A DNA stretch of 64,000 bases from Bacteroidota bacterium (GTDB taxonomy: Bacteria; Bacteroidota; Bacteroidia; Bacteroidales; FEN-979). Positions within the stretch are counted from its first letter, which is position 1. Each line of letters begins with the position of its first letter. Below are positions 5,601 to 54,773 of the stretch, in pieces. A program made the position numbers and the translations under genes. A model generated the notes under the pieces. It was not told the origin of the DNA. It saw nothing but the letters and a program-made list of their open reading frames with translations, and searched no databases. The stretch spans positions 1 to 64,000 of the forward strand of contig JAPLDF010000060.1 of assembly GCA_026391835.1 (NCBI GenBank), in the 5' to 3' direction.

Positions 5601-5618
5601 ATTGTCTTATAATTAATA
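5601..5618 (+). other. attL: attL core: host XerC arm plus central region
   Basis: Exact 18-bp copy of the sequence at 54745-54762 (ATTGTCTTATAATTAATA). Within it, TTGTCTTATAA corresponds to an 11-bp XerC-type arm and TTAATA to the 6-bp central region. The following 11 bases (GACGGGTAATG) are unlike a canonical XerD arm and would be the phage-derived half. Confidence 0.8.
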
Positions 5619-5781
5619 GACGGGTAATGGTTAATTGTGTCTAAACTAAGTATATTTAGTTTTTCAATGCACTGGGAACGTGCTTCTTAATGGCCTTGGG
5701 GGAGGAATTCAAAAAATAAGTTACAGTTAATTTATAAATGTATGCGCATGGTTTTAAAGTATCAATTGCGCCTTATCCTAG

Positions 5782-6078
5782 TTAATTGTTTCTTTCGTCA
5801 AACAGTATTTCTTCTACATCAGTTAAGCGAAAGTGAATGTGCTGATCGTAAAACATATTGGTCAATGAAACAGGATATGTTCTACAGTGACCAGTGTATT
5901 GATCAAACCTTTCTATCCGGGTCACTTCAAACCAAAGATGTTCAACAATCTTTTCATCCCTAATCGCAAGCTTCACCATTTCACCTATACACAAAGTTCT
6001 GCCCGGGTGACTATCATGGAAAATCTGCTTTCTTATTGCAGCATAATCCAGGCAATTTATTAAATTGTATTTAATCAT
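5782..6078 (-). CDS. Unknown phage early protein
   Basis: A 98-residue protein that I do not recognise. It is rich in charged and aromatic residues (HLWFEVTRIERFDQYTGHCRTYP), has no membrane segment or signal, and looks like a small cytoplasmic beta-rich domain. It overlaps the upstream repressor-like gene by ATGA, so the two are cotranscribed away from the early promoter region and are translationally coupled. Position between attL and the repressor suggests a role in lysogeny or superinfection control, which is inference only. Confidence 0.6.
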   Translation of the reverse strand: MIKYNLINCLDYAAIRKQIFHDSHPGRTLCIGEMVKLAIRDEKIVEHLWFEVTRIERFDQYTGHCRTYPVSLTNMFYDQHIHFRLTDVEEILFDERNN

Positions 6079-6437
6079 TTACGCCCCTTGTCCTTCTCCT
6101 TTAATATTGCGATAAGGTCTTGCAAATTTTCTTTGTCTTTTTCCAACTCTACAACCCTTGCTTGAAGCTTTTCAATGGTTTCAAGGTATTGAGTAACTTC
6201 CAGAGGTTTATTATCTCCAAACCAATGATCAATTGTTAAGTCCAGTTGATTGGAAACCTTTGCCAGCATACTGACTTTCATTGTCCCGTTTTTCAGGGAA
6301 TAGCGGAACCCGTTTTCAGTCAGACCACGTTCGTCCGGATACTTAACTTTTAACTCTTTTAGGAAGTCTCGAATGTGAATTTGTCTTTCCAGAAGGACGG
6401 TCTGTATCTTGACCCCAAAGTCTGCTATATCATTCAT
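6075..6437 (-). CDS. Probable phage repressor with N-terminal helix-turn-helix and coiled coil
   Basis: A 120-residue protein. The middle segment (about residues 35-72), GLTENGFRYSLKNGTMKVSML followed by KVSNQLDLTIDHWFG, has the spacing and hydrophobic pattern of an XRE/Cro-type helix-turn-helix in Bacteroidota phages. Residues about 78-115 form a heptad-patterned coiled coil (YLETIEKLQARVVELEKDKENLQ), suiting dimerisation. It is divergent from the early gene at 6564, and the 126-bp intergenic space holds two exact 15-bp direct repeats, the expected arrangement for an autoregulating lysogeny switch. The identity as repressor rests on fold pattern and position. Confidence 0.62.
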   Translation of the reverse strand: MNDIADFGVKIQTVLLERQIHIRDFLKELKVKYPDERGLTENGFRYSLKNGTMKVSMLAKVSNQLDLTIDHWFGDNKPLEVTQYLETIEKLQARVVELEKDKENLQDLIAILKEKDKGRK

Positions 6438-6490
6438 ACCAGGTCTTTACTTGAGTTATTCAGTTTGGTTTCATTATAAACTATATGGGA

Positions 6491-6526
6491 AAAGCAAAAT
6501 ATATTTGCAGCAAAGCAAAATATATT
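6491..6526. promoter_or_regulatory. Two direct-repeat operators in the divergent early region
   Basis: The 15-mer AAAGCAAAATATATT occurs at 6491-6505 and 6512-6526, a 21-bp period that puts both on the same face of the helix. The first copy overlaps TATATTTG (6500-6507), which fits the Bacteroidota -7 consensus on the plus strand, so binding would block rightward transcription. The divergent coiled-coil HTH protein is the likely ligand. A 12-bp match recurs in reverse at 52904-52915. Confidence 0.6.
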
Positions 6527-6547
6527 ATTAATTTGCGGCTCATATAT

Positions 6548-6561
6548 CTAACTAAAAACAT
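6548..6561 (+). promoter_or_regulatory. Shared A-rich translation leader
   Basis: CTAACTAAAAACAT lies two bases before the ATG at 6564 and is repeated exactly before the minus-strand gene starting at 54533. It is A-rich and lacks a Shine-Dalgarno sequence, as is common for Bacteroidota starts. Confidence 0.5.
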
Positions 6562-6563
6562 AC

Positions 6564-6908
6564 ATGGAACCCCCTAAGAGCGAACAAAACTACAACATAA
6601 AACGAACAAAGTCAAACAAGAAACTGAACTTTTTTGAGAAAAATAAAGATTTCATTTCGTTTTTCCGCAATATTCCACATGGGACATCAAGAATACTGCG
6701 CGACCGGTTAATCAAAAAATTTGGTAAAACCGAAACGTATTCACTCAACTATATAAATATGGTCCTTAATCCTGACATTAACAGGTTCAACAAAAGGATC
6801 ATGAATGAAGCCCTGGCTCATTTTGCTGAAGCAAAAATCGACCAGTTAAAGACTCGTGAATTAATGCAGTCATTTATCCCCATCAAGACAAAAGCCATCG
6901 CCAAATGA
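6564..6908 (+). CDS. Unknown phage early protein, basic N terminus
   Basis: A 114-residue lysine-rich protein of unknown family, first gene of the rightward early operon. The N-terminal 25 residues are very basic and probably disordered; the rest is predicted helical (FRNIPHGTSRILRDRLIKKFGKTETYSLNYINMVLNP). The segment NIPHGTSRILRDRLI...YSLNYINMVLNP resembles the small DNA-binding regulators found in the same position in Bacteroidota phages, where a helix-turn-helix reads a target and the Y-x-x-M-V motif packs behind it, but this is a weak resemblance. It overlaps the next gene by ATGA. Confidence 0.6.
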   Translation: MEPPKSEQNYNIKRTKSNKKLNFFEKNKDFISFFRNIPHGTSRILRDRLIKKFGKTETYSLNYINMVLNPDINRFNKRIMNEALAHFAEAKIDQLKTRELMQSFIPIKTKAIAK

Positions 6909-7208: not shown

Positions 7209-7610
7209 ATGTCATACGTTGATATTGATGGCCACACCATTTATACCGGTGCGGCAAAAATGCTCATTGACCGTATTCATGAGGTGAACAACCTTCTTGG
7301 GAAGTCAGAATTAAAGTCGGGTCAGACTGAATCCTGGAAGTTCTGGAAGAAGACCGCTGATATCATGAAGTACGCATGGGATTTCATGCGAAGTGTTGAC
7401 TGGATCCTTCAACAAAACGTACAGCTTCGCCAGGAGAATCAATACCTCAGGGCACGCAATCAGCACCTGGAACAGATCAATCTTTCAATCACCATCCTTC
7501 GACGTGCAAAGCTTCAAGGCAACTTTGAGGAAACGGTTGCTTTTGTTGATGATCTCATGGAATGGGGTGTTGAGAAATTAGAAAAAGCCTTAGAAAATGT
7601 ACACAAATGA
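7209..7610 (+). CDS. Unknown phage early protein with coiled coil
   Basis: A 133-residue protein, tryptophan-rich in its middle (ESWKFWKKTADIMKYAWDFMRSVDW) with a coiled-coil stretch near residues 65-90 (VQLRQENQYLRARNQHLEQ). It overlaps the replication helicase gene by ATGA. The position directly before the helicase and the oligomerising segment would fit a replication accessory or loader-type partner, but no family is recognised. Confidence 0.58.
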   Translation: MSYVDIDGHTIYTGAAKMLIDRIHEVNNLLGKSELKSGQTESWKFWKKTADIMKYAWDFMRSVDWILQQNVQLRQENQYLRARNQHLEQINLSITILRRAKLQGNFEETVAFVDDLMEWGVEKLEKALENVHK

Positions 7611-9787
7611 CTGAATTACCCGAAGATCTCGAATTACTCCCAACAGATGCAGGTGCGAAAGAATCAGTCATTACCTCGGCAGAGGTAAAGCTTGAAACAG
7701 CCGGTGACAATATCATCCTGAAAGGGGATGCCATCAACGAAATCTGCGTTGAGCTGAATGAGCTGAACAATGGGCCTCAATCCGATCTGATCATTTCTTA
7801 CCTGTCAAAGAAATACAAGGTTTCCAAAAAGACCTTTAATGACAATTGCAAGAAATTACTTGATGCCTCCAGGCGGCCAAAATTTGACCGGGGGCCTAAA
7901 CTCATGACAGATTATGACGAGGATGAAGAAACCGACCCGACCAAAAAGCAGGGTTGGTTCATCCGCAATAACTGTTACTGGTTTCACTCCAAAGAGGGGA
8001 TGCCTGTAAAAGGCTCCAATTTCATCATAACCCCTCTTTTTCACATATACTCGAAAACGGATAACAAGCGCCTGGTGCGCATCACCAATGATGAAGGCTT
8101 TTCTAAAATCATTGATATCCCTTCACAAAAGTTCATAAGCGTTGAGATGTTCCAGGCTTACGTTTATGGCGAAGGAAATTTTATCTGGTCAGGTGGTAAA
8201 CCCCACTTCATGAAAATCCTTCAACATATTTCCAAATCCTTTCCAGTGTGTAATGAATTAAAAACTTTAGGCTGGCAGCGGGAAGGCTTTTACGCTTTCG
8301 CTAATGGCATCTATAACGGCACATGGCAACCTGTCGATGATTTCGGCATCACTACCCATAAGGGCGAAAACTATTTCTCTCCTGCCTTCTCAAGCGTTTA
8401 CAAGGGGGTTCGCGAGGATGACGACGAGTATGAGAATGACCGCTATTTCGTTTATAACCTCTCACCGGTCACATTCAAAGAATGGTCCACCCTGATGACA
8501 GATGTTTATGGGAAGAATGCCGTCATTGCTGTTTCTTATGCCATCGCCAGTATTTTCCGCGACCTGATTTACGAGAAGTATAAAATCTTTCCTCACCTTT
8601 TTCTTTTTGGTGAAAAGCAATCTGGCAAAAGTCAGTTAGCCTGGTCATTGTCAAACCTGTTTTTCCATAATCTCCCTGCTTTTAACCTCAACTCAGGCAC
8701 TCATGTCGGCCTTTCCCGGAAAGGCTCCCGGGTGAAAAACTGCATCGTCTGGACCGATGAATATTCAAATGACATCGACCCGCGCCGGTTCCAGTTGCTG
8801 AAAGCTGCTTATGATGGGGTAGGGCATGAGAAGGGAAAAATGACGCAGGATAGCAGGACATCCGTCACCAAGATAAATGCTGCCTTTTGCATTTCCGGCC
8901 AGTACCTGCCAACCATTGATGATAACTCACTGCTGACTCGTTCATGCCTGCTTTCCTTTATCAAAAAACAATATTCAGATTGGGAGATGCAGCGCTATGA
9001 TGAACTGAAAAAGATTGAGGTAGAAGGGATCAGCTCCCTGGTCTGTAAAATTCTTGACTACCGGCCAAGAATGGAAGCCCATTTCGCCGTGACCTTTTCG
9101 GAAATACAGGAGAAATTGAAATCAGAAATGATCCATGAGAAACTTCAATTCGATGAAAGGTTGGTTCGTAATTATAGCTGCCTGCTTGCGCCAATTAAAA
9201 TTCTGACAACCGGGGATGACCCTTTGGAACTAAGCTTCACCTATGAAACAATGTGGGCGCAGGTCAAACATGACATCGCCCAATTGTCAAAACAGATCGC
9301 CAGTTCGGAATCCATCTCTGGCTTCTGGAAAATGGTTGAATTTTTACTGGACGAAGGGAAAATTCAAAACAATGTCGATTTTCTGATCAAATCGGTGCCC
9401 TCATTATCTGTCACAAACAAAGACGGGGATGATGAACACAAAAAATTCAACCCTCCGGAAAAATGTCTCTTCATCCGGTTTTCCCGGGTGCATCCGCTTT
9501 ACATGGAGAAGCATCGCCAGCAAACCGGCAAGAATGGGGTAGACCTGGTTTCAATCCTCCATTACCTGAAAAATCATAAATCCTATGTTGGGAATGCTTC
9601 GGCGGTCCGTTTTGATACCAGCAATACTTCTGCATTTGTTTTCAAGTATGGGCCTAATGAGCTGAATATTAATTTGGAACGAACCATAAGAGATGTGTTT
9701 TCAAATGCTAAAAGCGGCTCTGAACCACCGGTTCCGGAAGGACCGCCCCCCGATCTTTTTGATGACGGCAGTGGCATCCCATTATGA
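7607..9787 (+). CDS. Phage replicative helicase/primase-like ATPase
   Basis: A 726-residue protein. The N-terminal third (about 1-230) is an unknown domain, with the DYDEDEETDPTKKQGWFIRNNCYW segment and a following beta-rich region. The ATPase core has Walker A GEKQSGKS (residues 335-342), Walker B-like hydrophobic run ending WTDEYSN (382-388) and a later polar sensor stretch CISGQYLPT; NSLLTRSCLLSF resembles the arginine-finger region. This layout is that of the DUF927-like/SF3-like helicases and primase-helicases of phages and mobile elements. It should unwind DNA at the phage origin. A perfect inverted repeat and AT-rich tract lie directly after its stop codon. Confidence 0.75.
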   Translation: MTELPEDLELLPTDAGAKESVITSAEVKLETAGDNIILKGDAINEICVELNELNNGPQSDLIISYLSKKYKVSKKTFNDNCKKLLDASRRPKFDRGPKLMTDYDEDEETDPTKKQGWFIRNNCYWFHSKEGMPVKGSNFIITPLFHIYSKTDNKRLVRITNDEGFSKIIDIPSQKFISVEMFQAYVYGEGNFIWSGGKPHFMKILQHISKSFPVCNELKTLGWQREGFYAFANGIYNGTWQPVDDFGITTHKGENYFSPAFSSVYKGVREDDDEYENDRYFVYNLSPVTFKEWSTLMTDVYGKNAVIAVSYAIASIFRDLIYEKYKIFPHLFLFGEKQSGKSQLAWSLSNLFFHNLPAFNLNSGTHVGLSRKGSRVKNCIVWTDEYSNDIDPRRFQLLKAAYDGVGHEKGKMTQDSRTSVTKINAAFCISGQYLPTIDDNSLLTRSCLLSFIKKQYSDWEMQRYDELKKIEVEGISSLVCKILDYRPRMEAHFAVTFSEIQEKLKSEMIHEKLQFDERLVRNYSCLLAPIKILTTGDDPLELSFTYETMWAQVKHDIAQLSKQIASSESISGFWKMVEFLLDEGKIQNNVDFLIKSVPSLSVTNKDGDDEHKKFNPPEKCLFIRFSRVHPLYMEKHRQQTGKNGVDLVSILHYLKNHKSYVGNASAVRFDTSNTSAFVFKYGPNELNINLERTIRDVFSNAKSGSEPPVPEGPPPDLFDDGSGIPL

Positions 9788-11816: not shown

Positions 11817-13073
11817 ATGAATCCTTTTCTTTTAGATATCCTCACTTCGACCTGGCTTCTTCATGCTTCAAATCCGGATGCATATGGAGCGATGCTCGTT
11901 TCCCTGCTTCGGGGTGATCGTATCAGCGCAGAAGACTTTTCTGCTGCCAGGGAAAAGAACCGGCCTTTCGTCGTTCTGCCTTCCAATGGTCCCCAGGGTG
12001 CAACCCAACCTCTGAACGCTGCCAATCTTTCCAAAGGATCTGTGGCAGTGATCCCCATTCGTGGCATCATCATGAAGGATGATGTTGAATGCGGTCCCAG
12101 GGGAAGTGTTTCCATTACACAGGATATTCAGTCTGCCGATGCCAACCCGAATATTAAATCAATCCTGTTGGTTATCAGTTCTCCCGGGGGGACAACTTCC
12201 TATACCGATCTGCTTTCCGATGCGGTTACCAATTGTTCCAAGCCGGTAGTGGCCTATGTTGAAGGAATGGCGGCCAGCGCCGCTTACTGGATCATCTCCG
12301 GGGCAGATAAAATCATCTGCTCCTCCGACCTGGATATTGTCGGTTCCATCGGAACCATGCTTGAGTACATGGATATGAAACCGTACTTCGAAAAGGCCGG
12401 TGTGGTCATCCATGAAGTGTACGCTACGCTCAGCACTGAGAAAAATCAGATGCTGGCAGACCTCAGGGCAGGTAATTATGAACCGCTGCGCAAAGAGCTG
12501 CTTGATCGCATCAACTCAAAATTCCATACAACCGTGATGGCAAACAGGCCTTCACTCTCTGTTACCACCCTGACCGGTAAAACTTATTTTGCATCCGATG
12601 CCATCGCCCTTGGCCTTATTGATGAAATCGGTTCATACGAATATGCCCTTCAACAGGCTGATTCTATTGTTTCAGCCAATGCAAACCTCCAAATAAACAA
12701 TGAAATGAAAAGTATCAAAATGCTGGCGGTCTGGACCGCACTCGCTTCCTTCTTTGGTTTCACCGAAAGTATTGAGAGCAAAGATCTGACAGAAGAAATG
12801 GTCGGGCAGGTCAACGACAAGCTTGCAGACCTGACAGCCGAGAACACGAACTTCAAAACTGAGATTGCGACTGCGACGGAAAAGCTTGAGAAGATGACTG
12901 CTGATCATACCGCTTTGCAGTCTGTTCATGCAGAAACTGTCCGCCAGTTTGACGCCTTCAAAGCCCTGGACGCCGCAACGGAAACCACCACCGGTAAGCC
13001 GGGTGACAAATCAGCCGAAGAAATCCTTTCTGATTCATACAGCTACAACAGGATCGCTGACCAAAATTCCTGA
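11817..13073 (+). CDS. S49-family prohead maturation protease with scaffold-like C terminus
   Basis: A 418-residue protein of the SppA/ClpP-like S49 serine peptidase family. The nucleophile is Ser154 in EGMAASAAYW and the general-base lysine is probably Lys209 in STEKNQ; the 55-residue spacing matches small SppA enzymes. VISSPGG (near 120) is the oxyanion/strand motif. After about residue 297 the sequence becomes hydrophilic and coiled-coil-like (VNDKLADLTAENTNFKTEIATATEKLEKM), the pattern of a capsid scaffold fused to a prohead protease, as in lambda C/Nu3. Directly upstream of the major capsid gene, it would process scaffold and capsid during head maturation. Confidence 0.85.
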   Translation: MNPFLLDILTSTWLLHASNPDAYGAMLVSLLRGDRISAEDFSAAREKNRPFVVLPSNGPQGATQPLNAANLSKGSVAVIPIRGIIMKDDVECGPRGSVSITQDIQSADANPNIKSILLVISSPGGTTSYTDLLSDAVTNCSKPVVAYVEGMAASAAYWIISGADKIICSSDLDIVGSIGTMLEYMDMKPYFEKAGVVIHEVYATLSTEKNQMLADLRAGNYEPLRKELLDRINSKFHTTVMANRPSLSVTTLTGKTYFASDAIALGLIDEIGSYEYALQQADSIVSANANLQINNEMKSIKMLAVWTALASFFGFTESIESKDLTEEMVGQVNDKLADLTAENTNFKTEIATATEKLEKMTADHTALQSVHAETVRQFDAFKALDAATETTTGKPGDKSAEEILSDSYSYNRIADQNS

Positions 13074-15897: not shown

Positions 15898-15988
15898 CAC
15901 AGCAACTAATCCCCATGCTGCATACTGCCGGGATCGCCGGCGCAATCCCGAAACCACCGCAAAAGGGCTTACCTGCATTGTTAGTGCC
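15890..15988 (+). repeat. attC-like imperfect palindromic repeat, copy 1
   Basis: Ninety-nine bases with outer cores GCCCATAAC and GTTAGTGCC, offset inner arms CTAATCCCC / GGGCTTAC, and a central hairpin CGGGAT...ATCCCG. Eighty-four bases (15899-15982) match 17342-17425 with five differences. The nested outer-core, inner-arm and loop layout is that of integron attC recombination sites; the GTTRRRY core is imperfect. Confidence 0.55.
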
Positions 15989-16004
15989 AATAAAGTAAAC
16001 AAAC

Positions 16005-17261: not shown

Positions 17262-17332
17262 GTTGATTGGATTACTTTAAGATTTTAATATTATTTCCAA
17301 TCTGTTCGGATGAAATGATAAAATTTTCAACT

Positions 17333-17429: not shown

Positions 17430-17444
17430 TACATAATAAAACAA

Positions 17445-40804: not shown

Positions 40805-40814
40805 TCAAAACCTC

Positions 40815-42138: not shown

Positions 42139-42193
42139 ATCTGTCCTTTACTGATTGCCTGTTCAGCGCTTTATTTGCCAATAAATCATTGAT

Positions 42194-42697: not shown

Positions 42698-45600
42698 TGG
42701 CAGCACAGACAGAAGCAGCAAGGGCAGAAATCATCCTGAATGGTTCAAAGGCCAACGCAACATTGAAGGAACTGGAAAATGCAGCGAAAGCTTTGAACGC
42801 TGAATGGCGCAAGATGGCTCAAGGCAGTAAAGAGTTTTCAGATACCGCTACGCAACTTCAGGGGGTAAACCAGAAGATATACGATATCCGAAAGCAGACC
42901 CAAGCCTTGAAAGAGGATATGAAGAAAACAGAAGGTGGGCTTGATGGCATGATGAATTCTCTGAAAACGGCAGCTATCGGGGCCGGTGCCGCTTTAGCAG
43001 CAGCCTTTTCCCTCCATGCCATCAAAGACTATTTTCAGGAAGCGGTAAAAGGTGCCGTAGAGTTAAAGTCTGTCGAAAAGAACCTTCTTGATGTTTTGGG
43101 CGGGAATAAAGCCGTTCAAAGAGAACTTGTGAATCTCGCCAAAGAACGCGAAGGTTCTACGAAGTCAACAAGAATGGAGATCGAAGCTGCTGAAAAATTC
43201 CTTGCCATACAGGAACGCAGCCCCGAACAGATCAAGAAAACCATTTTGGCAGCCGAGGACCTCTCCGCAATGACCGGGAAAACACTTCAGCAATCAGTCG
43301 AGGACCTCGATGCCACAATGGAAGGCCGGTTAGGGAAAACCTTACCGAAACTTTCTAAGGACCTCAAAGACCTTACCAAAGAGCAATTGTATCATGGTGC
43401 CGCCATTGATATGATTGCTGAAAAATACCGGGGCCTTGCAGAAGAGGAAATGAAAACCCAGGAGGGTGAGCTCATCCTTTTAGGGAAAAGCTGGACCATC
43501 CTTCAGCGCACAATAGGGGAGGCCCTGCTTGGAACTGGTGGCTTTTTTGAAGGGATGATCTCATCCACCCGGGAAGCCATCGGCACCATGACCAAGTTCT
43601 TTGAAATCCCAATGGATCAGAAAATAAGAAAAGAGCAAGAAAGTCTGAACGGCTTGGTATTTCAAATTCAAGCTACCAACACCAACCAAAAAGAACGGAA
43701 CCGGTTGATCGCTGAGCTTCGTGCAAAGTATCCCGAATTCCTTGAGAACGTCAAGACAGAGGATGTTACCAACCAATTCCTTGCAAAACATCTGGAAGAG
43801 GTCAACATTCAGTACATGGAGAAGATCAGGCTGGCGCAGTCAGAAGAAGCTTTAACCGAAATAGCTGAAAAAGAGATTAAAGCTTCAAAGAAACTTTCCG
43901 ATGCGGAAGCCGAGCGCAACAATATCCTGGCTAAATCCATGAGCCTTCTGTATGCATCGAAACCGGCGTATGCCGCCCTGGTTGAACAGGCCACTTCACT
44001 TGAAGAAAAAATAAAGCTTGTCAAGAAATATTGGGGTGATGGAACAAACGCATCAACCGGCACCGGCGCTGATTTCTTAATCGCTGCACAAAAGGCCAAA
44101 GAAGCTGCCGATAAGATGCGGGTTTATTCCGTAGAATTTAAAGCGGAACAGCTTAAAATAGCCGAGTCCGCAGTAAGCAGTTCCCTTGCGTTGGTCAATA
44201 ACCTGGATTCTGTATCGAATCAGCTTCTTGTGATCGCAATGGGAACAACTGATAAGACAACAAGGATGATCATTCAGGCTGAAATGGAGGACCGTGAGCG
44301 TAAAGGCAAACTTGCAAAGGCAGAAATAAAACAATATACGGAGGACCTTGACTTCAAAAAGATGTCTGCCGACCAGCTAAATGAATATATCTCCCGGGGC
44401 CGGGAAGCGGATGCAACAAATTCTGACCGCACGAACATGCGTAAAGCCCAGACAGAACTTGACCACAGGTTGAAGCTTGATGATAAACTCAAAGAGTCCT
44501 ATAAGAATCTGATGGATGAACTCAAGCTGATCGAAGGCAAAAATTATGCAGATAAGTTTACCCAAACTCAACAGGAAATCCGCAACGTAACAGAGAAGTA
44601 TGACACGCTTATTGTCAAAGCAAGAAAGTTTGCTGCCGAGAACGAAAAAGCTTTGTCACCCGCTCAGAAAAAAGAGGTTGCCGAGCAGATCACAAACCTT
44701 CAGGGTGCGAAGGATGCCCAAATTCACCAGGTCATGCTTCAAGCCGAGCAAGTCTTCGCCGATAATGTCAAAAAGATCGACGAAAATTTGCGGGTAGCGA
44801 GGCTTGATGTTATCTCCCGTCAGGTTTATGAAGTCAACAAAAAGTATGATGATCAACGCAAAGAGATCATGGGCGCAATTTTCTTCGCTTACGCTGAAGA
44901 AATCAAAGCTGCTGAAGGTCAAAATGACAAGTTGATCCTTGCCGAGAAACACAAGAAAGAGGCCATCGCTGCGGTTGACGGGGATATGAAATACCTTGCT
45001 AAAGCCCAGAAAGCGGATGTTGCCAAGGTAAGGGAAGAGGGGAATCAGAAATTTGATGAAACCCTTAACAACCTGAAGTTGAAAGGTGAAAAGGATCTCG
45101 CTATTGGCAAAGAAAAGATTCAACTTTCCGTCAATGCCAAGTATAAAAAGATACTTGAAGATAGTGTAGGTGATCAGGCCAAAACAGATGCCATCAAGCT
45201 TCAAATGACAGAAGAGGTATCGGCAAGCCAGTTAAAACTTACCCAGGAGAACGCACAAAAGATCATGCAGGAGTCTATCGCTATCGCGCAGACTGCCGTT
45301 AACGCTCTTGGATCAGTTTTCCAAATGCAGGACCAGGCCGCAGCCGATGGATTAAAGAAGGATGATGATATTGCAAATAAGAAAAAGGCCGCGCTTGATG
45401 CACAATTGAAAAGTAAACGCATCTCCCAAAAAACACATGATCTGGAAGTTGCCAAGGTCGATGCTGAAATGGCGAAAAAGAGGCAGAAGCTTGATCATGA
45501 TGCTGCTGTTCACGCAAAAGAAATGGCGCTCTTTAACGCTCTCATCAGTGTTGCCGTTGCTATTGCAGGCGCTTTGGCAACGCCTCCTGGGCCTGGTGGG

Positions 45601-46095
45601 ATCGTCATGAGCATAATCGCTGCTGCCCTTGGTGCAATTCAAATCGGTTTCATCCTCAGTCAAAAGGTGCCTGCCGCTGCAACCGGAAGGTTCAATGTCA
45701 TTGGAGAGCAGGACGGCAGGGCATATAATGATGTGCCCTACCAGGAATCCTTTACAGGCATCCCGGGCCGCCCGATGCTCGTCAATGAAACAGGAAATGA
45801 AATTGTAATTGACCCGAAAACAACACGAAACTTGATGGTCAATTACCCTGGGGTGATCAATGCAATCAACTTCGCCAGGGTACCACAACGATCAGGGGGG
45901 AGTTACCTTCCGGAAAATGCAACTCCCACGCCCCAACAAGCAGCAAATGCCGCTTCATCGGAAAGCTTTACCAATGCGCTTCTTGAATTCAACGCTCATG
46001 CCCGCAATGGCATCAGGACATTTGTGGTCTATGATGATGTCCGTGACTCAGCCGCTACGATCAATGATATTGAAACCAGTGTAAAATCCTCTTAA
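42697..46095 (+). CDS. Tail tape measure protein
   Basis: A 1132-residue, almost entirely helical protein. The N terminus (ARAEIILNGSKANATLKELENAAKALNAEW) is a TMP-type start; TDKTTRMIIQAEMEDRERKG and other long charged helices follow; a hydrophobic stretch near residues 945-990 (LFNALISVAVAIAGALATPPGPGGIVMSIIAAALGAIQIGFILSQ) is the membrane-active segment common in tape measures; the C-terminal region (GRPMLVNETGNEIVIDPKTTRNLM) is the usual phage tail fragment. It sets tail length and helps DNA enter the cell. Length suggests a tail of roughly 150-170 nm by the usual residue-to-length relation. Confidence 0.85.
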   Translation: MAAQTEAARAEIILNGSKANATLKELENAAKALNAEWRKMAQGSKEFSDTATQLQGVNQKIYDIRKQTQALKEDMKKTEGGLDGMMNSLKTAAIGAGAALAAAFSLHAIKDYFQEAVKGAVELKSVEKNLLDVLGGNKAVQRELVNLAKEREGSTKSTRMEIEAAEKFLAIQERSPEQIKKTILAAEDLSAMTGKTLQQSVEDLDATMEGRLGKTLPKLSKDLKDLTKEQLYHGAAIDMIAEKYRGLAEEEMKTQEGELILLGKSWTILQRTIGEALLGTGGFFEGMISSTREAIGTMTKFFEIPMDQKIRKEQESLNGLVFQIQATNTNQKERNRLIAELRAKYPEFLENVKTEDVTNQFLAKHLEEVNIQYMEKIRLAQSEEALTEIAEKEIKASKKLSDAEAERNNILAKSMSLLYASKPAYAALVEQATSLEEKIKLVKKYWGDGTNASTGTGADFLIAAQKAKEAADKMRVYSVEFKAEQLKIAESAVSSSLALVNNLDSVSNQLLVIAMGTTDKTTRMIIQAEMEDRERKGKLAKAEIKQYTEDLDFKKMSADQLNEYISRGREADATNSDRTNMRKAQTELDHRLKLDDKLKESYKNLMDELKLIEGKNYADKFTQTQQEIRNVTEKYDTLIVKARKFAAENEKALSPAQKKEVAEQITNLQGAKDAQIHQVMLQAEQVFADNVKKIDENLRVARLDVISRQVYEVNKKYDDQRKEIMGAIFFAYAEEIKAAEGQNDKLILAEKHKKEAIAAVDGDMKYLAKAQKADVAKVREEGNQKFDETLNNLKLKGEKDLAIGKEKIQLSVNAKYKKILEDSVGDQAKTDAIKLQMTEEVSASQLKLTQENAQKIMQESIAIAQTAVNALGSVFQMQDQAAADGLKKDDDIANKKKAALDAQLKSKRISQKTHDLEVAKVDAEMAKKRQKLDHDAAVHAKEMALFNALISVAVAIAGALATPPGPGGIVMSIIAAALGAIQIGFILSQKVPAAATGRFNVIGEQDGRAYNDVPYQESFTGIPGRPMLVNETGNEIVIDPKTTRNLMVNYPGVINAINFARVPQRSGGSYLPENATPTPQQAANAASSESFTNALLEFNAHARNGIRTFVVYDDVRDSAATINDIETSVKSS

Positions 46096-46096
46096 C

Positions 46097-47737
46097 ATGC
46101 TCGCTCTTTTCGTAAACGACAAGTCCCTCGATCTCAGCAATGACATTTCAATAACCTTGAAATTCTCATCGCCGGTTTTCAATTCAATCGGTGACTATAC
46201 GTATCCTTTTAAACTCCCGGCCACGCCATTGAACGTCTCCGTTCTGGGGTTCAAGCATCGGATTGAAAACTCGCTTGATCCCTTCCAGGTGTTTGATGCA
46301 AACCTGCAATGGAATGGAGTGATCCTGCTCAAAGGAACGCTGCGCATTTTAAATGCTCAGTCAGACCTCTATGAAGCAACGCTTTTCATGGATAAGGGAG
46401 ATTTCGTTTACCGCCGCAAGTATATGACCCTTCAGGATGTTGATTTTGGCTCCTTGTCCTGGAACAGTGAAGCTGAACGGCTGGATTACTTCAACTCAAT
46501 CCGCAACCAGTATTACCCTCAGAAACCATTCTGTTTTCCGATGATAAAAAACATGACCTATTTCGAGGAATTGCCGGAAAACCCGATGCTTTACTACCTG
46601 AATTACTATCACTGGAATAATCTGCAAATCCTGTTCGAAGGTATTGACAGGGCTGTATTTGTGCCCATGCTTTACCTGAAGTATGTGCTTGATTTTGTCT
46701 TTAAAAAGCTGGATTATGCCCTGGATGATTCCTTCTTTGCACCGGATCCAGAGTTTGACTCCCTGACCCTTTACAATCATGTTGATGCGAACAGTACGCT
46801 GGCGGGATTGTTTAATTATGACTCGACCAAGCTGTTCATGAATTACCATGCTCCACGCATGACCATGAACGATTTTCTTACCGGTCTGGAGAACTTCTTC
46901 AACATTCGCTTTTTCGTCAACAACATCACCCGGATAGTCAAGCTTGTATCTGTAGATCAGATCGTAAAGTCAAGTGAAGCCATCCCGTTTTCAAACAATG
47001 TCTCGCTGATCTATACCCAGATTGGCGATCCGATCAAGGGGTACCATCTGAAAATGAACATGGAGACAGACGATGAGTTCTGGACCGCCATGCAGCCAAG
47101 TCAGGCGATTATACTGGATAATATCAAAGAAGCTGTTGAAGCCTATAAGGATCTTCCGATCTGGCCAGCTTCCCCCAATGGGGAGATCAGATATGTTCGC
47201 TCTGAAGGGGTGTATTATATCCTGTGGGATCGTGCCTGGACAATCATCTATCTCAATGAAGCTACCTACTCCCTTCATTCTGAATTCATTCATCATGAAA
47301 GCGATAAATCAATTGAAACAAAGTTTTCTACGCTGATGAACAACTCGGTTGCCCCGTATGATTGTGCGGTAGGCAGCGCACAGTCTGGATGGCAGGAAAC
47401 CGCACCGAAACTTTTCTTCGCCAAATTCCACCCCCGAACCGGAGGCGGGATTGATGATGAAAGAATGTACGCATCCAACTTTTCAACCTCCCATTCACTT
47501 TTCTATTACGGTGCAAATGGCTTGTATGTGAAACATTTCAAGACATTTTTTGAATACATGATGGCCGCCAAGCAAGTGAAATTTGTCAAGCAAATGTCCT
47601 TGCTGGAACTCAACCAACTGGACTTCTCCAAAAAGGTTGAAATCAACGGGAATAAATATCTGCTATCGGAAGTCCAGGTTGCCATTACCCACAAAGGGAT
47701 CAAGCCTGCCACAATCATTGCCTATACCAGCCTGTAG
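46097..47737 (+). CDS. Tail protein (distal tail/baseplate-like)
   Basis: A 546-residue protein immediately after the tape measure. LALFVNDKSLDLSNDISITLKFSSPVFNSIGDYTYPFKLPATP is a beta-rich opening typical of the distal tail or baseplate hub of Bacteroidota siphophages. The body is a long chain of beta-rich modules with many aromatic residues. It probably links tail tip and host-binding proteins. No enzyme motif is visible. Confidence 0.68.
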   Translation: MLALFVNDKSLDLSNDISITLKFSSPVFNSIGDYTYPFKLPATPLNVSVLGFKHRIENSLDPFQVFDANLQWNGVILLKGTLRILNAQSDLYEATLFMDKGDFVYRRKYMTLQDVDFGSLSWNSEAERLDYFNSIRNQYYPQKPFCFPMIKNMTYFEELPENPMLYYLNYYHWNNLQILFEGIDRAVFVPMLYLKYVLDFVFKKLDYALDDSFFAPDPEFDSLTLYNHVDANSTLAGLFNYDSTKLFMNYHAPRMTMNDFLTGLENFFNIRFFVNNITRIVKLVSVDQIVKSSEAIPFSNNVSLIYTQIGDPIKGYHLKMNMETDDEFWTAMQPSQAIILDNIKEAVEAYKDLPIWPASPNGEIRYVRSEGVYYILWDRAWTIIYLNEATYSLHSEFIHHESDKSIETKFSTLMNNSVAPYDCAVGSAQSGWQETAPKLFFAKFHPRTGGGIDDERMYASNFSTSHSLFYYGANGLYVKHFKTFFEYMMAAKQVKFVKQMSLLELNQLDFSKKVEINGNKYLLSEVQVAITHKGIKPATIIAYTSL

Positions 47738-47779
47738 CTGTCCTTTATTCTTTTTCAACCATGCTTTATTATTGCTGCC

Positions 47780-49342
47780 ATGATAACCATCAACACCACT
47801 CCACCCGATACTTTCTTTGCAGGCAATCCAGCACGGTTCGCCATCAGCACGGATAACATGCTTTCCTATATTGGCCGGCATTGCTCGTTCAAACTGGTTG
47901 TTTCTGCTGCCGATACTGTGGCAGGTCATACCTTGATTTTTGGCTTTCCCGGTAAAACTGTAACCTTTACCACCGCACCGGTACCCGATGACTCCGGACT
48001 GCAGATCCCCCTGGCTCTGAGTTCGGCGAACTGGTCTACCTGGTCCCAGACCCTGTATGATTGCCTGCTATCAAACTATGAAATCTCCTCCCGGTACATC
48101 ATTACAATAGGGGAGACCGGCCCGACAAACCGGGTTATTGACTTCATGGCCTATAACCGTGGTGCTGCCGATTCTGCCGATGTAACCTCTCACCTGGCAA
48201 CCGTCACCAAATACATGTATTTCAGTGGCCTGGATTCCATTAACCGCCCCACCTTTTCAATCGTAGGTGGCATTTGGGATAAAGGCATGAAACAACTGGC
48301 ACAGGATATCAAACCGGTTGATTCAAACGGTCAGGTGACATTCAACTTTTCGGAATACCTCAGTGTCCTGCTTGAAAACAACGCTCAACCACGCTTCACC
48401 TGGCCTTTCAGCCCAACAGAGCTGTACCATGTTTACAATAATTACATTCTTGAATTCTATGCCGGTTTTGCTGAACGCTATGAAAATCAGATACACAAAA
48501 TTCATTTTGATACCATGCGCAATGCTTTCCCGGGTGGCCTGAACCGCGAAACCATCGTAGCCTACAATGCATCTGGTCAGCAGTTTTTCAGTGTTGCTGA
48601 GAATTTGCTAAGCTTCATGACCTGGGCACCCACCACCAAGATGACAAGCAAGACTTGCCCGGAGCTGCTGTTCTACTATGTCATTGCAAAAGCGCCGTTC
48701 GATCAGCTGAATTTTGTGGTTGTCGTCACCTTCACGGATGGAACTGTTGATCAGATATTAACGGATATCAGAGGCATTGAATCCAATACGGTTATTGAAT
48801 TGAGTGTCGGATATGAAAAGCTTTCTTTTGAAACCCGCTTCCCGACAAAAAAGGTTGCAAAATGGCAAGTGTTTCTGAACAACCAGGATCTCCATCTTAC
48901 TTCAGAAAGCCGGTATTACATTCTCGACAACGCTTTTTATGAGCATGAGCGCATCTTTCTGTTCCAGAACTCCTACGGCAGGGCATATGACGTGGTTCGC
49001 TTTACGGGCAAGGGATCGCTGGATATTGAGGTAGATTTCTCAACCGCTTCTTCGGATACGGTAGGGGATTACACCTCGTTCAATGCGCCATCCTCCAAGT
49101 TCGCTGCATCCGAGCTTCAAAAAATGAAGGTCAATTCCGGCTGGATATCCCACGAAACAAAGGATTACCTGCGGGAATTGTTGCTATCCAAACAGGTTTT
49201 CGAATACAAAGACAGGTGCCTGTACCCGGTCATCATCACAAATGACAAGATGAAGTTGTACTTCAAGGATGATGAGTATCTCTATGATATTGAGATTGAT
49301 TACGACCGCTGTTACAGAGATTTTTTTTTTCAAAGTTCATAA
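47780..49342 (+). CDS. Tail tip protein ending in a ten-T run
   Basis: A 520-residue beta-rich tail protein (ITINTTPPDTFFAGNPARFAIST start) of a family seen after the previous tail protein in this phage group. The last codons contain ten consecutive Ts (49321-49330) encoding D-FFF, eleven bases before the stop. A one-base slip (minus-one ribosomal or plus-one-base transcriptional) would run the frame into the 20-codon open frame that follows. The stop overlaps that frame by TAATG. Function beyond tail-tip structure is unknown. Confidence 0.68.
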   Translation: MITINTTPPDTFFAGNPARFAISTDNMLSYIGRHCSFKLVVSAADTVAGHTLIFGFPGKTVTFTTAPVPDDSGLQIPLALSSANWSTWSQTLYDCLLSNYEISSRYIITIGETGPTNRVIDFMAYNRGAADSADVTSHLATVTKYMYFSGLDSINRPTFSIVGGIWDKGMKQLAQDIKPVDSNGQVTFNFSEYLSVLLENNAQPRFTWPFSPTELYHVYNNYILEFYAGFAERYENQIHKIHFDTMRNAFPGGLNRETIVAYNASGQQFFSVAENLLSFMTWAPTTKMTSKTCPELLFYYVIAKAPFDQLNFVVVVTFTDGTVDQILTDIRGIESNTVIELSVGYEKLSFETRFPTKKVAKWQVFLNNQDLHLTSESRYYILDNAFYEHERIFLFQNSYGRAYDVVRFTGKGSLDIEVDFSTASSDTVGDYTSFNAPSSKFAASELQKMKVNSGWISHETKDYLRELLLSKQVFEYKDRCLYPVIITNDKMKLYFKDDEYLYDIEIDYDRCYRDFFFQSS

Positions 49343-49404
49343 TGAGATTGGTTGAAATAAACGACCGTCAATATTCAGATCAATACAGTGAGGACTACGA
49401 ATAA
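49342..49404 (+). CDS. Twenty-residue micro-gene or frameshift extension
   Basis: An ATG at 49342 opens a frame of 20 codons (MRLVEIND... SEDYE) that shares a TAATG with both the preceding and the following gene. Perfect overlap on both sides suggests it is translated, either as a coupled micro-protein or as the tail of the preceding protein after slippage on the T10 run. Composition is acidic and tyrosine-rich. Confidence 0.5.
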   Translation: MRLVEINDRQYSDQYSEDYE

Positions 49405-49772
49405 TGATAACATACCAACAGGTTTTAGCATCCATTGTTGAAGCACTCTCAGGCCGGCCAGCCGGTCAAAAAGTGCTTGTCGTCAATCATGAAGCTGCTG
49501 AAAAAAAGCTTCTGGATTACATTCAACAATTTGTTGGCGCTATCGCTGTAGCGCCCCCCAGGGAAATCCATGATAATTTACCAGAGAATCAGGAAGTCCA
49601 GATTTTCTGGAATCCACCGTTCCCGGATAGCAGTTATGCCTTCACCATCAATGCCTTTTCGGAAGAAGGTACCCCGGCAGAACTGTTCCTTATTGAGAAA
49701 AATGCCGAATTCCTGACCGTGAAATCACTGGTCAACGCCACAGTAAACGCAATTGCAATACCCTATTCCTAA
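49404..49772 (+). CDS. Unknown small tail-region protein
   Basis: A 122-residue protein starting within the preceding stop (TAATG). The N-terminal half is helical (TYQQVLASIVEALSGRPAGQKVLVVNHEAAEKKLLDYIQQFVGA), the C-terminal half looks like a small beta domain (QEVQIFWNPPFPDSSYAFTINAFSEEG) reminiscent of a fibronectin-type strand set. Possibly a tail-tip accessory or fibre-attachment protein. Confidence 0.58.
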   Translation: MITYQQVLASIVEALSGRPAGQKVLVVNHEAAEKKLLDYIQQFVGAIAVAPPREIHDNLPENQEVQIFWNPPFPDSSYAFTINAFSEEGTPAELFLIEKNAEFLTVKSLVNATVNAIAIPYS

Positions 49773-49794: not shown

Positions 49795-51912
49795 ATGAAA
49801 AAGATCCTGTTTGCCTTCCTTTTAGCCCTTACCGTTTTCACCTGTTCAGGGCAGTTCCACATGTTCAATGGCATTTCATTTTCCCAGGGAGGTGAATTGT
49901 ACCAGTGTGCTTTTGCACCTTCAACCATTACTTTTAATAACACTCCCTATTTAGCTTTCCCAGGCTTCGGTACAACTCATTCTGTTGCTGCCTATGGCGA
50001 TCACTCGCATCCATCAACGTATGTCACTCCGGCTGACCAAATTCTTCACTGGGATGGGTCAAAATATCTTCCATATGCTGCCAAATATGTGGTTGCGCCT
50101 GCTTACGCCTATTTCTACTCAGGGATAGAAAATCCGACTTCTTTTTTCACAGCACCCGTTATAAAGCTTGATGGTTCATTAACTGTTCCCAGAGCAATGG
50201 TTGTAAGTAATGATGGTCACACAGTAATTGACTTTACCCCTGGACAGCTTGCGTGGGCTTATACCCCAACAGGCCATTCGTATGAAATGCTTACCTATAG
50301 CAACAATGGGAAATATTACACCAATACCTTTGATAGGACCGTAGCAAGAGGAATTGAATACCTGATTGGTTCAAATGCTTCATTAGGTGACTATCATGGT
50401 GAGTATATCTCTATTGATGATTACAATCGAAAGTTTACCATCAACATGACTAAAATCCTTTTGAATAAAGGCACAGCAGGTAAATACCTTCACACAGATG
50501 CGAACAAGGAGATTGAGTATGTCGATCTTACACCGGGTTCAGTTGGCCTTAGTAACGTGACCAATAACGCGCAGGTCACTGCCGTAAGTGCAGCCGCCCC
50601 GATTGTTTCGTCCGGCGGAACAACCCCGGTGATCTCCATTACTAAATCAGGCGGGGCATCAGCTGGCTACCTTTCTTCGGAGGATTGGAACGATTTTAAT
50701 GGTAAGGTAAGCAGCCAATGGACAAACAATGCCTGGGACCTCTATTACATGAAAGGTAAGGTTGGTATTGGCCTGACAAACCCTGCTTTTACTTCGGATG
50801 TCTACGGTAGTGCTAATATTTATGATTATAAATCCTCGCTGAATTACATTTCCAAATTGAAAATCAGTCAGGGCAATTCCACTATGTCCGGTATCTGGTC
50901 CAGTGCTACAGATTCAGTGCCCTACCAGCTTCATGTGAAAGATATTTCTGAAGAGAAATCCAGCGGATATGTCTATAATACTTCGTTTGTTGCTGATCCC
51001 TTCATGGGAGCGTACATGTATTTTTACAGTCGTGATTACAATTACCAGGTTGGTTTATTTGACAGAATGGGCCATAAAAAAGCCTTTTGCGGTATTATGG
51101 GGGGCGGTATGCCAACTCAACCTTATCCGAATCTTGGTGATGCTTCGTATCCCTGGGGCAAAAGCTATTTTGCAGATTCCTTATTTTCTAAAAACATCAA
51201 GGCCGTCGGGAATGTAGTAGCTTCCGGTAACCTGATGCCATCGTCTGGCAATGCTCAGTTTAACATGTCCAACATCGTAACCTGGTCTGATGACTTTGGA
51301 ATTTATTGCAATGGCGGCTCAACTTCCAAATTGAAATTCTTTACAAATAGTGTGGAAGCCATGAGAATAACCCCAGAGCAGAATATTGGCATGGGTACCG
51401 AAACGCCGCATGAGAAATTGGATGTTCACGGTAGTATAAAGTCTGATTCTGCTGTTAAATCGGATGGTTTATACACCTCAATAAGACAGTTAAGCTGCCG
51501 AAAAATAGATTACGATGCCTATATTAATCATGTTGATTTTCATCAAGATAGCCCTTTTGAATATCAACATACAATTATTATTTCTGATTTGATGGACAAA
51601 CAAACTCTGACCATATTCCTTCCGGATCCTGCAACGTGTGTGGGCCAGGAATTTGTCATATGCAATCAATCACGCGAACAAGACGGACAAAATATCCTGA
51701 TCAGATGTCCGGTGGCTTCGGTTGTATTTGGGGTAAATTCAATGGGACAAGATTTAGGCGAACGTGGAATATATTTCGACTACGGCCAATGTGCTGATAT
51801 CTATAATTTCAACTCACCTGACCGTTGTGGCAATGGCTGCATGACATTCCAGGCGATATCAAATACTGAATACATGATGATTCATCGCGATATCAGAGCA
51901 TACAGAGAATAG
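49795..51912 (+). CDS. Tail fibre/receptor-binding-type protein with N-terminal signal sequence
   Basis: A 705-residue protein. VGLSNVTNNAQVT and GYLSSEDWNDFNGKV are phrases typical of phage tail fibres, and GIGLTNPAFTSDVYGS and MGTETPHEKLDVHGSI are repeats of the G(I/M)G-T-x-P-x-x-K-L-D-V-x-G type found in fibre and host-recognition proteins. Oddly, it begins MKKILFAFLLALTVFTCSGQ, a normal Sec signal peptide or lipoprotein-like sequence that a virion protein should not need. It could be a fibre recruited from a secreted host protein, or a surface protein displayed by lysogens. Confidence 0.68.
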   Translation: MKKILFAFLLALTVFTCSGQFHMFNGISFSQGGELYQCAFAPSTITFNNTPYLAFPGFGTTHSVAAYGDHSHPSTYVTPADQILHWDGSKYLPYAAKYVVAPAYAYFYSGIENPTSFFTAPVIKLDGSLTVPRAMVVSNDGHTVIDFTPGQLAWAYTPTGHSYEMLTYSNNGKYYTNTFDRTVARGIEYLIGSNASLGDYHGEYISIDDYNRKFTINMTKILLNKGTAGKYLHTDANKEIEYVDLTPGSVGLSNVTNNAQVTAVSAAAPIVSSGGTTPVISITKSGGASAGYLSSEDWNDFNGKVSSQWTNNAWDLYYMKGKVGIGLTNPAFTSDVYGSANIYDYKSSLNYISKLKISQGNSTMSGIWSSATDSVPYQLHVKDISEEKSSGYVYNTSFVADPFMGAYMYFYSRDYNYQVGLFDRMGHKKAFCGIMGGGMPTQPYPNLGDASYPWGKSYFADSLFSKNIKAVGNVVASGNLMPSSGNAQFNMSNIVTWSDDFGIYCNGGSTSKLKFFTNSVEAMRITPEQNIGMGTETPHEKLDVHGSIKSDSAVKSDGLYTSIRQLSCRKIDYDAYINHVDFHQDSPFEYQHTIIISDLMDKQTLTIFLPDPATCVGQEFVICNQSREQDGQNILIRCPVASVVFGVNSMGQDLGERGIYFDYGQCADIYNFNSPDRCGNGCMTFQAISNTEYMMIHRDIRAYRE

Positions 51913-53009: not shown

Positions 53010-53954
53010 TCATTCGTCATAGGTCATATAATGAAGCCGATTTTTAGCCGTGGCGCACCGTGGATGATACATATTGATTGTATCCTTCAAATGCTGTATT
53101 TGAATGTGGGTGTATATTTCTGTGGTAATTACAGATGCATGACCCAACATTTCCTGAATGGAGATCAAATCAGCGCCACCTTCCAGAAGATGGGAGGCAA
53201 AAGAGTGCCTCAGAGAATGAGGACCGATGGGCTTTCTGATGCCGGCCAGCTTTGCCAAATTCTGGACAATGAGGAAAGCCATTGTCCGTGTTAGTTTTGA
53301 GCCGCGACGATTCAGGAACACATAATTCTGCATCCCTTTTTGAATGGTTGCCATTTTTCGCTCATGTTTGATGTACCTGGTGATTTCCCTTATGGCCACC
53401 TGACCAATAGGAATGATCCTTTCTTTATCGCCCTTGCCGACAACCCGAATATACTGCTCCTTGAAATACAGATCAGTAAGTTTGAGGTTAACCAGCTCAG
53501 ATACACGGATTCCGCAACCGTAAAGGATTTCCACCATGGCTTTATTCCTTTGACCTTCGGGAGAAGTCAAATCAATATTCTTGATCATTCGCTCGATTTC
53601 AACCATGCAAAGTGTCACCGGCAACCTAAATCCGACGACAGGTAAATCAATCAGGGTCATCACATTGGAGGATACAATATTCTCCATCCACAGGTAATGA
53701 TAAAATGCCCTGATTCCATGCAAAATCTTTACCTGCGTTGTTGCAGCGATTCCTTCATGGTTAACCCATACCAGGAATCCGCGGACATTTGCCACATTGA
53801 CCTGTTCAGCAGGGATGATGGTATTTTGAATATCAAGGTAGTTTCTTAGTTTCCAGACACTATGCAGGTAGGATTCAACAGTTCTCGGGGATAAGGACCG
53901 CTCGATCATCATGTATGATTTGAACCCAAGTAAGGATGATTTCCAGTCATTCAT
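53010..53954 (-). CDS. XerD-like tyrosine recombinase (phage integrase)
   Basis: A 314-residue tyrosine recombinase. The N-terminal SAM-like core-binding domain (FKSYMMIERSLSPRTVESYLHSVWKL) and catalytic domain are both complete: Arg150 (GCGIRVSELV), Lys174 (VVGKGDKERIIPIG), His246 and Arg249 (HSLRH), His272 (LGHASVITT) and nucleophile Tyr281 (EIYTHI). Size, motif spacing and the C-terminal ending (YTHIQ...DTI..HPR) are those of chromosomal XerD rather than of a typical long phage integrase. It lies 0.8 kb from a dif-like attR. It should join phage and chromosome, perhaps with host XerC. Confidence 0.85.
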   Translation of the reverse strand: MNDWKSSLLGFKSYMMIERSLSPRTVESYLHSVWKLRNYLDIQNTIIPAEQVNVANVRGFLVWVNHEGIAATTQVKILHGIRAFYHYLWMENIVSSNVMTLIDLPVVGFRLPVTLCMVEIERMIKNIDLTSPEGQRNKAMVEILYGCGIRVSELVNLKLTDLYFKEQYIRVVGKGDKERIIPIGQVAIREITRYIKHERKMATIQKGMQNYVFLNRRGSKLTRTMAFLIVQNLAKLAGIRKPIGPHSLRHSFASHLLEGGADLISIQEMLGHASVITTEIYTHIQIQHLKDTINMYHPRCATAKNRLHYMTYDE

Positions 53955-53957
53955 CGC

Positions 53958-54533
53958 TTAGCTTTTTTCGGGTGAGTGTTCCTTCAGCGGTGTTGAACGC
54001 ATTTCAACATTTCCTTCACCGTCGCCAAGATCCCGCAAATCAAGACGTACATATTCAACTCGATCCCGGAATACCTGCAGCATTCGCACTTCAACGTAGT
54101 GTTTGCAGTATTTCTCAACCTTTTGCAGACTGGTTAAAATGTCCTCAAGGCTGTCCAGGGCGCAGAATAGCTGGCGAAAAACCATGTGATTCCCATTTTC
54201 ATAATGTCCCCGGGTGGTTGCAAATTCCAGGGAGTGATCAATGCTGGCAAAGGCAGATTTGATTTCCCTTTCAATTGCGGCATGGTTGGGGTGATTGGTA
54301 ATATAAAACCAAACCTTGCGGTAGTGGGTGATGGTCTCAATAAGGATCTGATTCAGGGTTACAAGTTTGTAGTTCAGCTCCAGGTTGATTTTAACCATGT
54401 ACTTTGCCGCATACTGGTCATTTGACCAGCCAGCGATTACACCATTTCCCAAACTGATTCTAAAACAGTTTCTTTCTTTGAAAGGACTATTTCCTTCCGG
54501 GTCTTCAATGTGCGTTAAAGTGATTTTTCTCAT
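53958..54533 (-). CDS. Unknown phage protein upstream of the recombinase
   Basis: A 191-residue, helix-rich protein (HYRKVWFYITNHPNHAAIEREIKSAFASIDHSLEF; CKHYVEVRMLQVF) of unknown family. It is three bases from the recombinase gene and probably cotranscribed, so it may be an excisionase-type or directional partner. It is preceded by the leader CTAACTAAAAACAT also found before the early gene at 6564, and by a palindrome and three TGTTCG boxes. Confidence 0.6.
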   Translation of the reverse strand: MRKITLTHIEDPEGNSPFKERNCFRISLGNGVIAGWSNDQYAAKYMVKINLELNYKLVTLNQILIETITHYRKVWFYITNHPNHAAIEREIKSAFASIDHSLEFATTRGHYENGNHMVFRQLFCALDSLEDILTSLQKVEKYCKHYVEVRMLQVFRDRVEYVRLDLRDLGDGEGNVEMRSTPLKEHSPEKS

Positions 54534-54538
54534 GTTAC

Positions 54539-54552
54539 ATGTTTTTAGTTAG
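54539..54552 (-). promoter_or_regulatory. Shared A-rich translation leader, second copy
   Basis: On the minus strand, CTAACTAAAAACAT, identical to 6548-6561, five bases before the ATG at 54533. Confidence 0.5.
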
Positions 54553-54585
54553 TTGTTTGTAATTCTGCATTTTAGAACGAATTCT

Positions 54586-54607
54586 TATAATCTCGCGCGA
54601 GATTATA
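54586..54607. repeat. Perfect 22-bp palindrome
   Basis: Eleven-base half TATAATCTCGC repeated in reverse complement with no spacer, centred on CGCG, about 55 bp upstream of the unknown gene beside the recombinase. Suits a dimeric regulator. Confidence 0.6.
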
Positions 54608-54635
54608 TGTTCGCAATGTGTTCGCTTTCTGTTCG
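54608..54635. repeat. Three TGTTCG boxes with 11-bp period
   Basis: TGTTCG at 54608, 54619 and 54630, immediately after the palindrome. One helical turn apart, these are likely sites for a cooperative DNA-binding protein, such as an excision or integration directionality factor or an operator. Confidence 0.55.
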
Positions 54636-54744
54636 TTCCGTCTAAAAACATGCGATTCGAGTGCTTTGGTCAAGAAAAAACAGGCCTTTTGGCGTGTTTT
54701 TCAAAATTGTAAAGGTCTGATTCTTAAACATATGCACTTTTCAA

Positions 54745-54773
54745 ATTGTCTTATAATTAATATTATGTTAAGT
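54745..54773 (+). other. attR: attR: dif-like site
   Basis: The 18-bp repeat shared with attL (54745-54762) is followed by TTATGTTAAGT (54763-54773). The layout, XerC-type arm TTGTCTTATAA, 6-bp centre TTAATA and XerD-type arm, equals a 28-bp dif site; the right arm differs from the E. coli XerD arm (TTATGTTAAAT) at one base. The right arm belongs to the chromosome. Confidence 0.8.

Follow-up and report, generated by a model that had tools for sequence, protein, structure and literature searches.

A tailed temperate phage appears to have entered the dif site of its host through Xer-type recombination, probably with the help of a two-gene module that lies just inside its right end and encodes an uncharacterized 191-residue protein (here called P0001) and a captured XerD. 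We put the probability of this reading at roughly two in three; the parts that it gives to XerC, the phage XerD and P0001 are inferred from the sequence and the arrangement of the genes. The host is a freshwater bacterium, and the phage sits exactly at its chromosome-separation site. More broadly, the best reading of the comparative data is that a new Xer-associated factor is common to the tailed Bacteroidales phages that target dif and that XerD was captured by one lineage among them.

Anatomy of the integration site

The window (the whole stretch of 64,000 nucleotides that was analysed) contains a prophage unit that measures 49,144 bp from copy to copy (54746 - 5602) of an exact 18-bp direct repeat, ATTGTCTTATAATTAATA. 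Its two copies (5601-5618 and 54745-54762, both on the + strand) are the only ones in the window. At attL, the XerC arm TTGTCTTATAA (5602-5612) and the 6-bp centre TTAATA (5613-5618) are an exact + strand copy of 54746-54762. Sequence comparison indicates that the next 11 bases, GACGGGTAATG (5619-5629, + strand), are a diverged, phage-derived right arm that replaces the XerD arm, and other left ends carry different sequences at this position. The right copy forms an intact dif of 28 bp, TTGTCTTATAA-TTAATA-TTATGTTAAGT (54746-54773, + strand), composed of the XerC arm (54746-54756), the centre (54757-54762) and an XerD arm (54763-54773) with a single base difference to that of E. coli; the whole site is identical to the dif of congeners. 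Recombination between attP and dif makes the left junction a hybrid and leaves dif complete at the right, with the crossover region within 17-18 bp. A first-pass annotation had described both the exact end repeat, with a right copy running into an XerD arm one base from that of E. coli and a diverged left arm, and the half-and-half pattern of Xer-exploiting elements (IMEX), with dif restored on the right and the phage-side arm diverged, and both descriptions are borne out.

The 18-bp repeat on its own is only moderately surprising. An 18-bp common word was reached in 1 of 300 trials under a Markov null with 2-kb stretches, so it is the comparative evidence that settles the dif reading, and a chance repeat is ruled out on those grounds. 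A tRNA as integration target was rejected because the window has none.

The same annotation likened the site to those of CTX-type phages, and this comparison does not hold. There is a single attP core with no inverted pair, and its 6-bp centre is identical to that of dif. A CTX-type site, with two inverted attP, was rejected because only two direct copies are found at ≤3 mismatches, and a VGJ-type site, in which the XerD side of the centre departs from dif, because TTAATA is the same in attL and dif. Judged by its sequence, the site is of the TLCphi/GGI type, with the XerC arm and whole centre as in dif and a diverged XerD arm.

A sub-terminal motif starts 11 bp inside the core (5630-5661, + strand; GTTAATTGTGTCTAAACTAAGTATATTTAGTT in the window, group consensus RTTAACTGTTTCTAAACAAAATATATTGTGCT). 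It was defined from aligned left ends of G013, G017, G018, G020, G021, G025 and G034 and from an independent pattern scan. In 11 of 20 distinct left ends, the consensus or a sequence close to it begins 10-11 bp inside the core, and a second class of left ends carries GTATGCTGATA followed by TTTAATCAATTACAAATAATTA. When GTDB contigs were scanned for the first-class motif, the matches were confined to uncultured Bacteroidales/Bacteroidetes MAGs, several of them named after lakes.

The target is the chromosomal dif

Three lines of evidence uphold the original proposal of a prophage at the chromosomal dif: conservation of the site, a fixed neighbour and the position of the site relative to GC skew. 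The core 21-mer TTATAATTAATATTATGTTAA occurs in 39 of 43 family genomes (≤3 mismatches), mostly as a single copy at 0-2 mismatches, and the 23-mer TTATAATTAATATTATGTTAAGT is unique in its own genome at ≤3 mismatches. On the XerD side, dif is followed by a gene for a TPR protein (54839-56149, - strand in the window) at 30 of 30 loci read, one per genome. The next conserved neighbour encodes DNA gyrase/topoisomerase IV subunit A (56115-58697, - strand; PF00521, E 9e-168); in relatives, gyrA lies beyond the TPR gene with 83-94% identity wherever enough sequence could be read.

The left flank carries a gene for a small PorSS (T9SS-sorted) protein (4952-5515, + strand), homologues of which lie left of an att in G013 (71%) and left of an intact dif in G030 (46%). 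The order in G030, i.e. PorSS-type gene, intact dif and TPR gene (54%), reproduces the empty site that had been proposed as a check. G030 is the only approximation of an empty site with both types of flank; elsewhere, other elements often lie left of dif. G017, G031 and G015 were rejected as empty sites, since each has a P0001 homologue beside dif.

The expectation that dif would lie at the GC-skew terminus was confirmed in two complete, single-contig genomes of the same order, where the motif falls at a flip from + to -, but in the draft contigs of the family the local skew is too slight for any flip to appear. In G331 the motif is at 294 kb, with + skew at 155-175 kb, - skew from 294 kb to ~1.7 Mb and + skew again from 1.86 Mb. 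In G254 it is at 17 kb, and the skew is mostly - up to 2.4 Mb (with one + sample at 500 kb) and mostly + from 2.66 Mb.

As a separate observation, at least eight family genomes (G001, G003, G005, G007, G009, G014, G019 and G026) have host xerD on the dif contig, at a distance of only ~11-15 kb. The distance is 19-35 kb in some relatives, perhaps owing to inserted elements. Kono et al. found xerD mostly near the origin (PMC3025954).

dif as an insertion hot spot

Use of dif by a 49-kb tailed phage had been called uncommon in Bacteroidota, but the insertion is no solitary case. In this Bacteroidales family dif is a hot spot that collects tandem elements and several related tailed phages. Tandem copies of the XerC arm plus centre, with foreign right arms, lie near dif in many relatives: G013 has three att copies on one contig, G018 and G033 have three each, and G032, G031, G015 and G027 have two or more. 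Some intervals between att copies are only 2.5-3.5 kb long (L139 in G018:C15; L137/L138 in G013:C87), some with a PorSS-type gene, and these resemble non-autonomous elements carried along within the dif array.

A tailed temperate phage

Judged by its genes, the element is a tailed phage (Caudoviricetes), with terminase, head protease, portal and tail genes, although the portal and tape measure are recognized by weak or indirect matches. Near the left end lies a phage gene (6075-6437, - strand) that is kept next to other class-1 left att sites (57-62%). It is followed by genes for a 726-aa primase-like replication protein (7607-9787, + strand; phrog_1139 DNA primase, E 6e-13; relatives 55-76%), a head maturation protease (11817-13073, + strand; phrog_53, E 1e-50) and the terminase large subunit (23818-25557, + strand; phrog_2, E 3e-9; relatives 65-83% in family genomes and IMG/VR). 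The portal-like protein (37490-38821, + strand) matches phrog_11226 weakly (E 1e-4) and is 76-80% identical to its counterparts in the dif prophages of G015 and G020. A probable tape-measure protein of 1132 aa (42697-46095, + strand) is proposed from its position and its homology to a tape-measure-like protein of G335/G336, and a tail fibre-like protein follows (49795-51912, + strand; phrog_9942, E 6e-6). The prophage also encodes an ArdC-type anti-restriction protein.

The structural genes (36565-49772) recur in the same order, mostly 44-83% identical, in the prophages of G020 and G015, whose right ends abut dif. Synteny with four IMG/VR contigs extends across nearly the whole prophage (terminase 65-77%).

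The phage also carries what looks like host-type secreted cargo: T9SS sorting tails occur on prophage-encoded proteins, one of them an M28 peptidase, alongside a Fib_succ_major protein (17358-18911, 27932-29086 and 29131-33195). Repeats of at least 18 bp at ~15.9/17.35 kb (15911-17400) and 26.1-26.8/33.9 kb (26115-33990) point to recent duplications of cargo DNA. Related terminase genes (62-79%) are also present on other contigs (G000:C47, G000:C54 and G025:C5), one of them deep within a contig of at least 360 kb, and sister phage lineages therefore probably integrate elsewhere.

P0001 and the captured XerD

The module just inside the right end reads away from dif. P0001 (191 aa; 53958-54533, - strand), which we propose to be an integration factor associated with Xer, is encoded 4 bp ahead of the gene for the XerD-like recombinase. 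Of the 43 family genomes, 11 encode a P0001 homologue, in every case 100-240 bp from dif, on its XerC side and reading away from it. Few matches beyond the family (nine, mostly weaker) came from a profile search across 393 genomes of the order; five of these nine have a dif-like site within ~300 bp, one of the five being weak and in opposite orientation. P0001 persists across phages with different structural genes. It has no relative in PDB, BFVD, Pfam or PHROG, no fold match below E 0.001 and no tblastn match in INPHARED. Its predicted structure (pLDDT 87) is a beta hairpin followed by four long helices that form an alpha-helical bundle. By these searches P0001 is a previously undescribed protein of no known family and, as no fold relative is recognizable, a role as ‘activator’ rests on its position and co-occurrence.

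The second gene encodes a tyrosine recombinase of 314 aa (53010-53954, - strand) with both expected domains (PF00589, E 6e-44; PF02899, E 4.5e-12) and, by reading, the R, K, HxxR, H and Y residues. Host XerD is 51% identical to it and host XerC 34%, and both host genes are still present. Being closest to XerD among the Xers, with domains and residues in place, the protein can be assigned to the XerD family. Only the window phage and two sister prophages, in G018 and G025, carry this captured XerD. The sister recombinases are 69% (G018) and 65% (G025) identical to it and belong to the same P0001-recombinase module ~0.8 kb from dif. Both sister prophages are split over contigs, and all of these genomes are draft MAGs; the G025 prophage was traced from its left end (C34:14696), with primase (71%) and terminase (80%) at matching distances. 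In a tree, the three recombinases group together (100/100), and their long stem lies beside the XerDs of the family. Capture of an XerD paralogue from an Xer-type ancestor is the best reading of these relationships. Peptide-pattern scans with the single recombinase gave no match, and a tblastn search of INPHARED with it returned distant Xers only, the best (45%) in unannotated faecal contigs.

The idea that the phage exploits the Xer system stands in so far as the host dif is used. The phage is not a pure hijacker, however, because it has its own XerD-like recombinase beside the site, a gene that the first-pass annotation had missed. If an IMEX is strictly an element that relies on host XerC/XerD only and has no recombinase of its own, the window phage falls outside the definition, and the IMG/VR contigs G334-G337 fall inside it as far as they extend.

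Half-sites in related viral contigs

These four contigs (32, 44, 57 and 46 kb) were found by scanning IMG/VR for the pattern of XerC arm plus centre. All four bear P0001 next to the attP core, and none has an Xer-like gene at HMM E ≤ 1 as far as the contigs go. G337 (46,386 bp), whose ends carry a direct repeat of 127 bp and whose attP lies internally between P0001 and left-end genes, is a complete, unintegrated phage form. The 57-kb contig, G336, has two different structural modules, ~71% identical in DNA, flanking an att, and so looks like two related phages in tandem; it also encodes a ParB-like protein of 569 aa near the terminase region (L313:17948-19657).

Right arms were compared over the five bases of the XerD arm nearest the core (TTATG). 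Where the XerD-like gene is absent, phages match at four of five (G334 and G335, GTATG; G337, TTATT; G015, ATATG; probably G020, TTATA), whereas among those with the gene the window (GACGG) and G025 (TATCT) match at one and G018 (TTCGG) probably at three. The contrast is suggestive, comparing two to three phages with five and being confounded by kinship.

Proposed mechanism and alternative explanations

In the mechanism that we favour, host XerC would bind the shared XerC arm, the phage XerD-like protein would replace host XerD on the foreign half-site, and P0001 would activate or direct the synapse without FtsK, as XafT reportedly does for a V. cholerae IMEX. The XerD-less relatives keep P0001 and part of the XerD half-site, and presumably use host XerC and XerD plus P0001. 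After integration, the degenerate attL half-site would block excision of the prophage by FtsK-driven Xer recombination, and the restored dif would still resolve chromosome dimers. A bolder form, which we hold tentatively and at somewhat less than even odds, is that P0001 founds a new phage family of Xer control, serving dif integration of Bacteroidota tailed phages without FtsK, and that in one lineage the captured XerD and host XerC form a hybrid recombinase that places the phage half-site outside host control.

The recombinase gene need not take part in integration at all. Host XerC and XerD alone could integrate the phage, with the XerD-like gene serving otherwise (e.g. in multimer resolution) and P0001 acting elsewhere. 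The host retains xerC and xerD, relatives of the phage that lack an Xer-like gene integrate or carry an attP of this kind, and many small dif elements show no recombinase in view. Yet the XerD-like gene occupies the usual integrase position beside attP in all three prophages that have one, and the same prophages have the least XerD-like half-sites, so that we regard this explanation as unlikely. Less probable still is a conventional phage integrase, with the XerD-like protein acting alone and dif as a coincidental target. Its catalytic residues are intact, and single-recombinase Xer systems exist (XerS, XerH and XerL; PMC5357621, PMC9765430), but Xer-less relatives use the same core and the attP half-sites are not inverted copies of each other. 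This asymmetry, together with an XerC half that is letter for letter that of the host, argues for host XerC as partner.

P0001 itself could serve immunity or regulation instead of recombination (as a repressor, or in superinfection exclusion at dif). Competition for the site, implied by the tandem dif elements, and a predicted helical bundle with a beta hairpin and no known domain are compatible with such a role. Its place beside attP, where an integrase would be expected, the operon that it forms with any recombinase present, and its persistence in phages with different structural genes speak against it, and we consider it improbable. Returning to the preferred reading of Xer-type integration with the P0001-XerD module, a group of tailed phages, many of which encode a novel protein where an integrase usually lies and some of which bring an XerD of their own, would broaden the concept of IMEX. 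The natural series (factor only; factor plus XerD) would show how elements escape FtsK control, and the group how a chromosome-maintenance enzyme can give rise to an integrase. The identification of dif as a site that collects tandem elements in a Bacteroidales family adds to this picture.

Comparison with known systems

Most phages known to target dif are small filamentous viruses, or non-tailed viruses of other kinds, that carry no recombinase. In the open-access literature covered we found neither a tailed phage at dif encoding XerD nor P0001. CTXphi-type IMEX likewise target dif and form arrays, but they are filamentous, with a single-stranded substrate and two inverted attP sites, none of which applies to the window phage. 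The Bacteroidales microvirus proviruses (BMV) use dif-like sites in the same bacterial order; they are, however, ~6-kb ssDNA viruses, not tailed, with no recombinase and no P0001-type gene described (PMC3091885). Legionella LME-1 is also integrated at dif with a modified dif on one side, but it uses the single host recombinase XerL and is not a tailed phage (PMC9765430).

As to the enzyme, the ‘simple’ tyrosine recombinases IntBrujita and IntKX are likewise Xer-like, lack an arm-binding domain and reside on mobile elements (PMC8138268). Such recombinases are a minority, found in 27 phages against 410 with arm-binding recombinases (PMC8138268). IntBrujita and IntKX are mycophage or gammaproteobacterial, whereas the window enzyme groups with the XerD of the host family and would target dif; that the separate P0001 gene takes the arm-binding role is speculation. 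An XerD activator, XafT, is encoded by one V. cholerae IMEX itself (PMC9765430), and P0001 is likened to it by proposed role only.

In TLCphi and the gonococcal genetic island (GGI) the XerD arm has diverged from dif but the XerC arm and centre match it, and as here dif is restored on one side with a hybrid site on the other (PMC5357621). They differ in using host XerC and XerD, while the element described here is a tailed phage with an XerD paralogue and a different, putative accessory protein.
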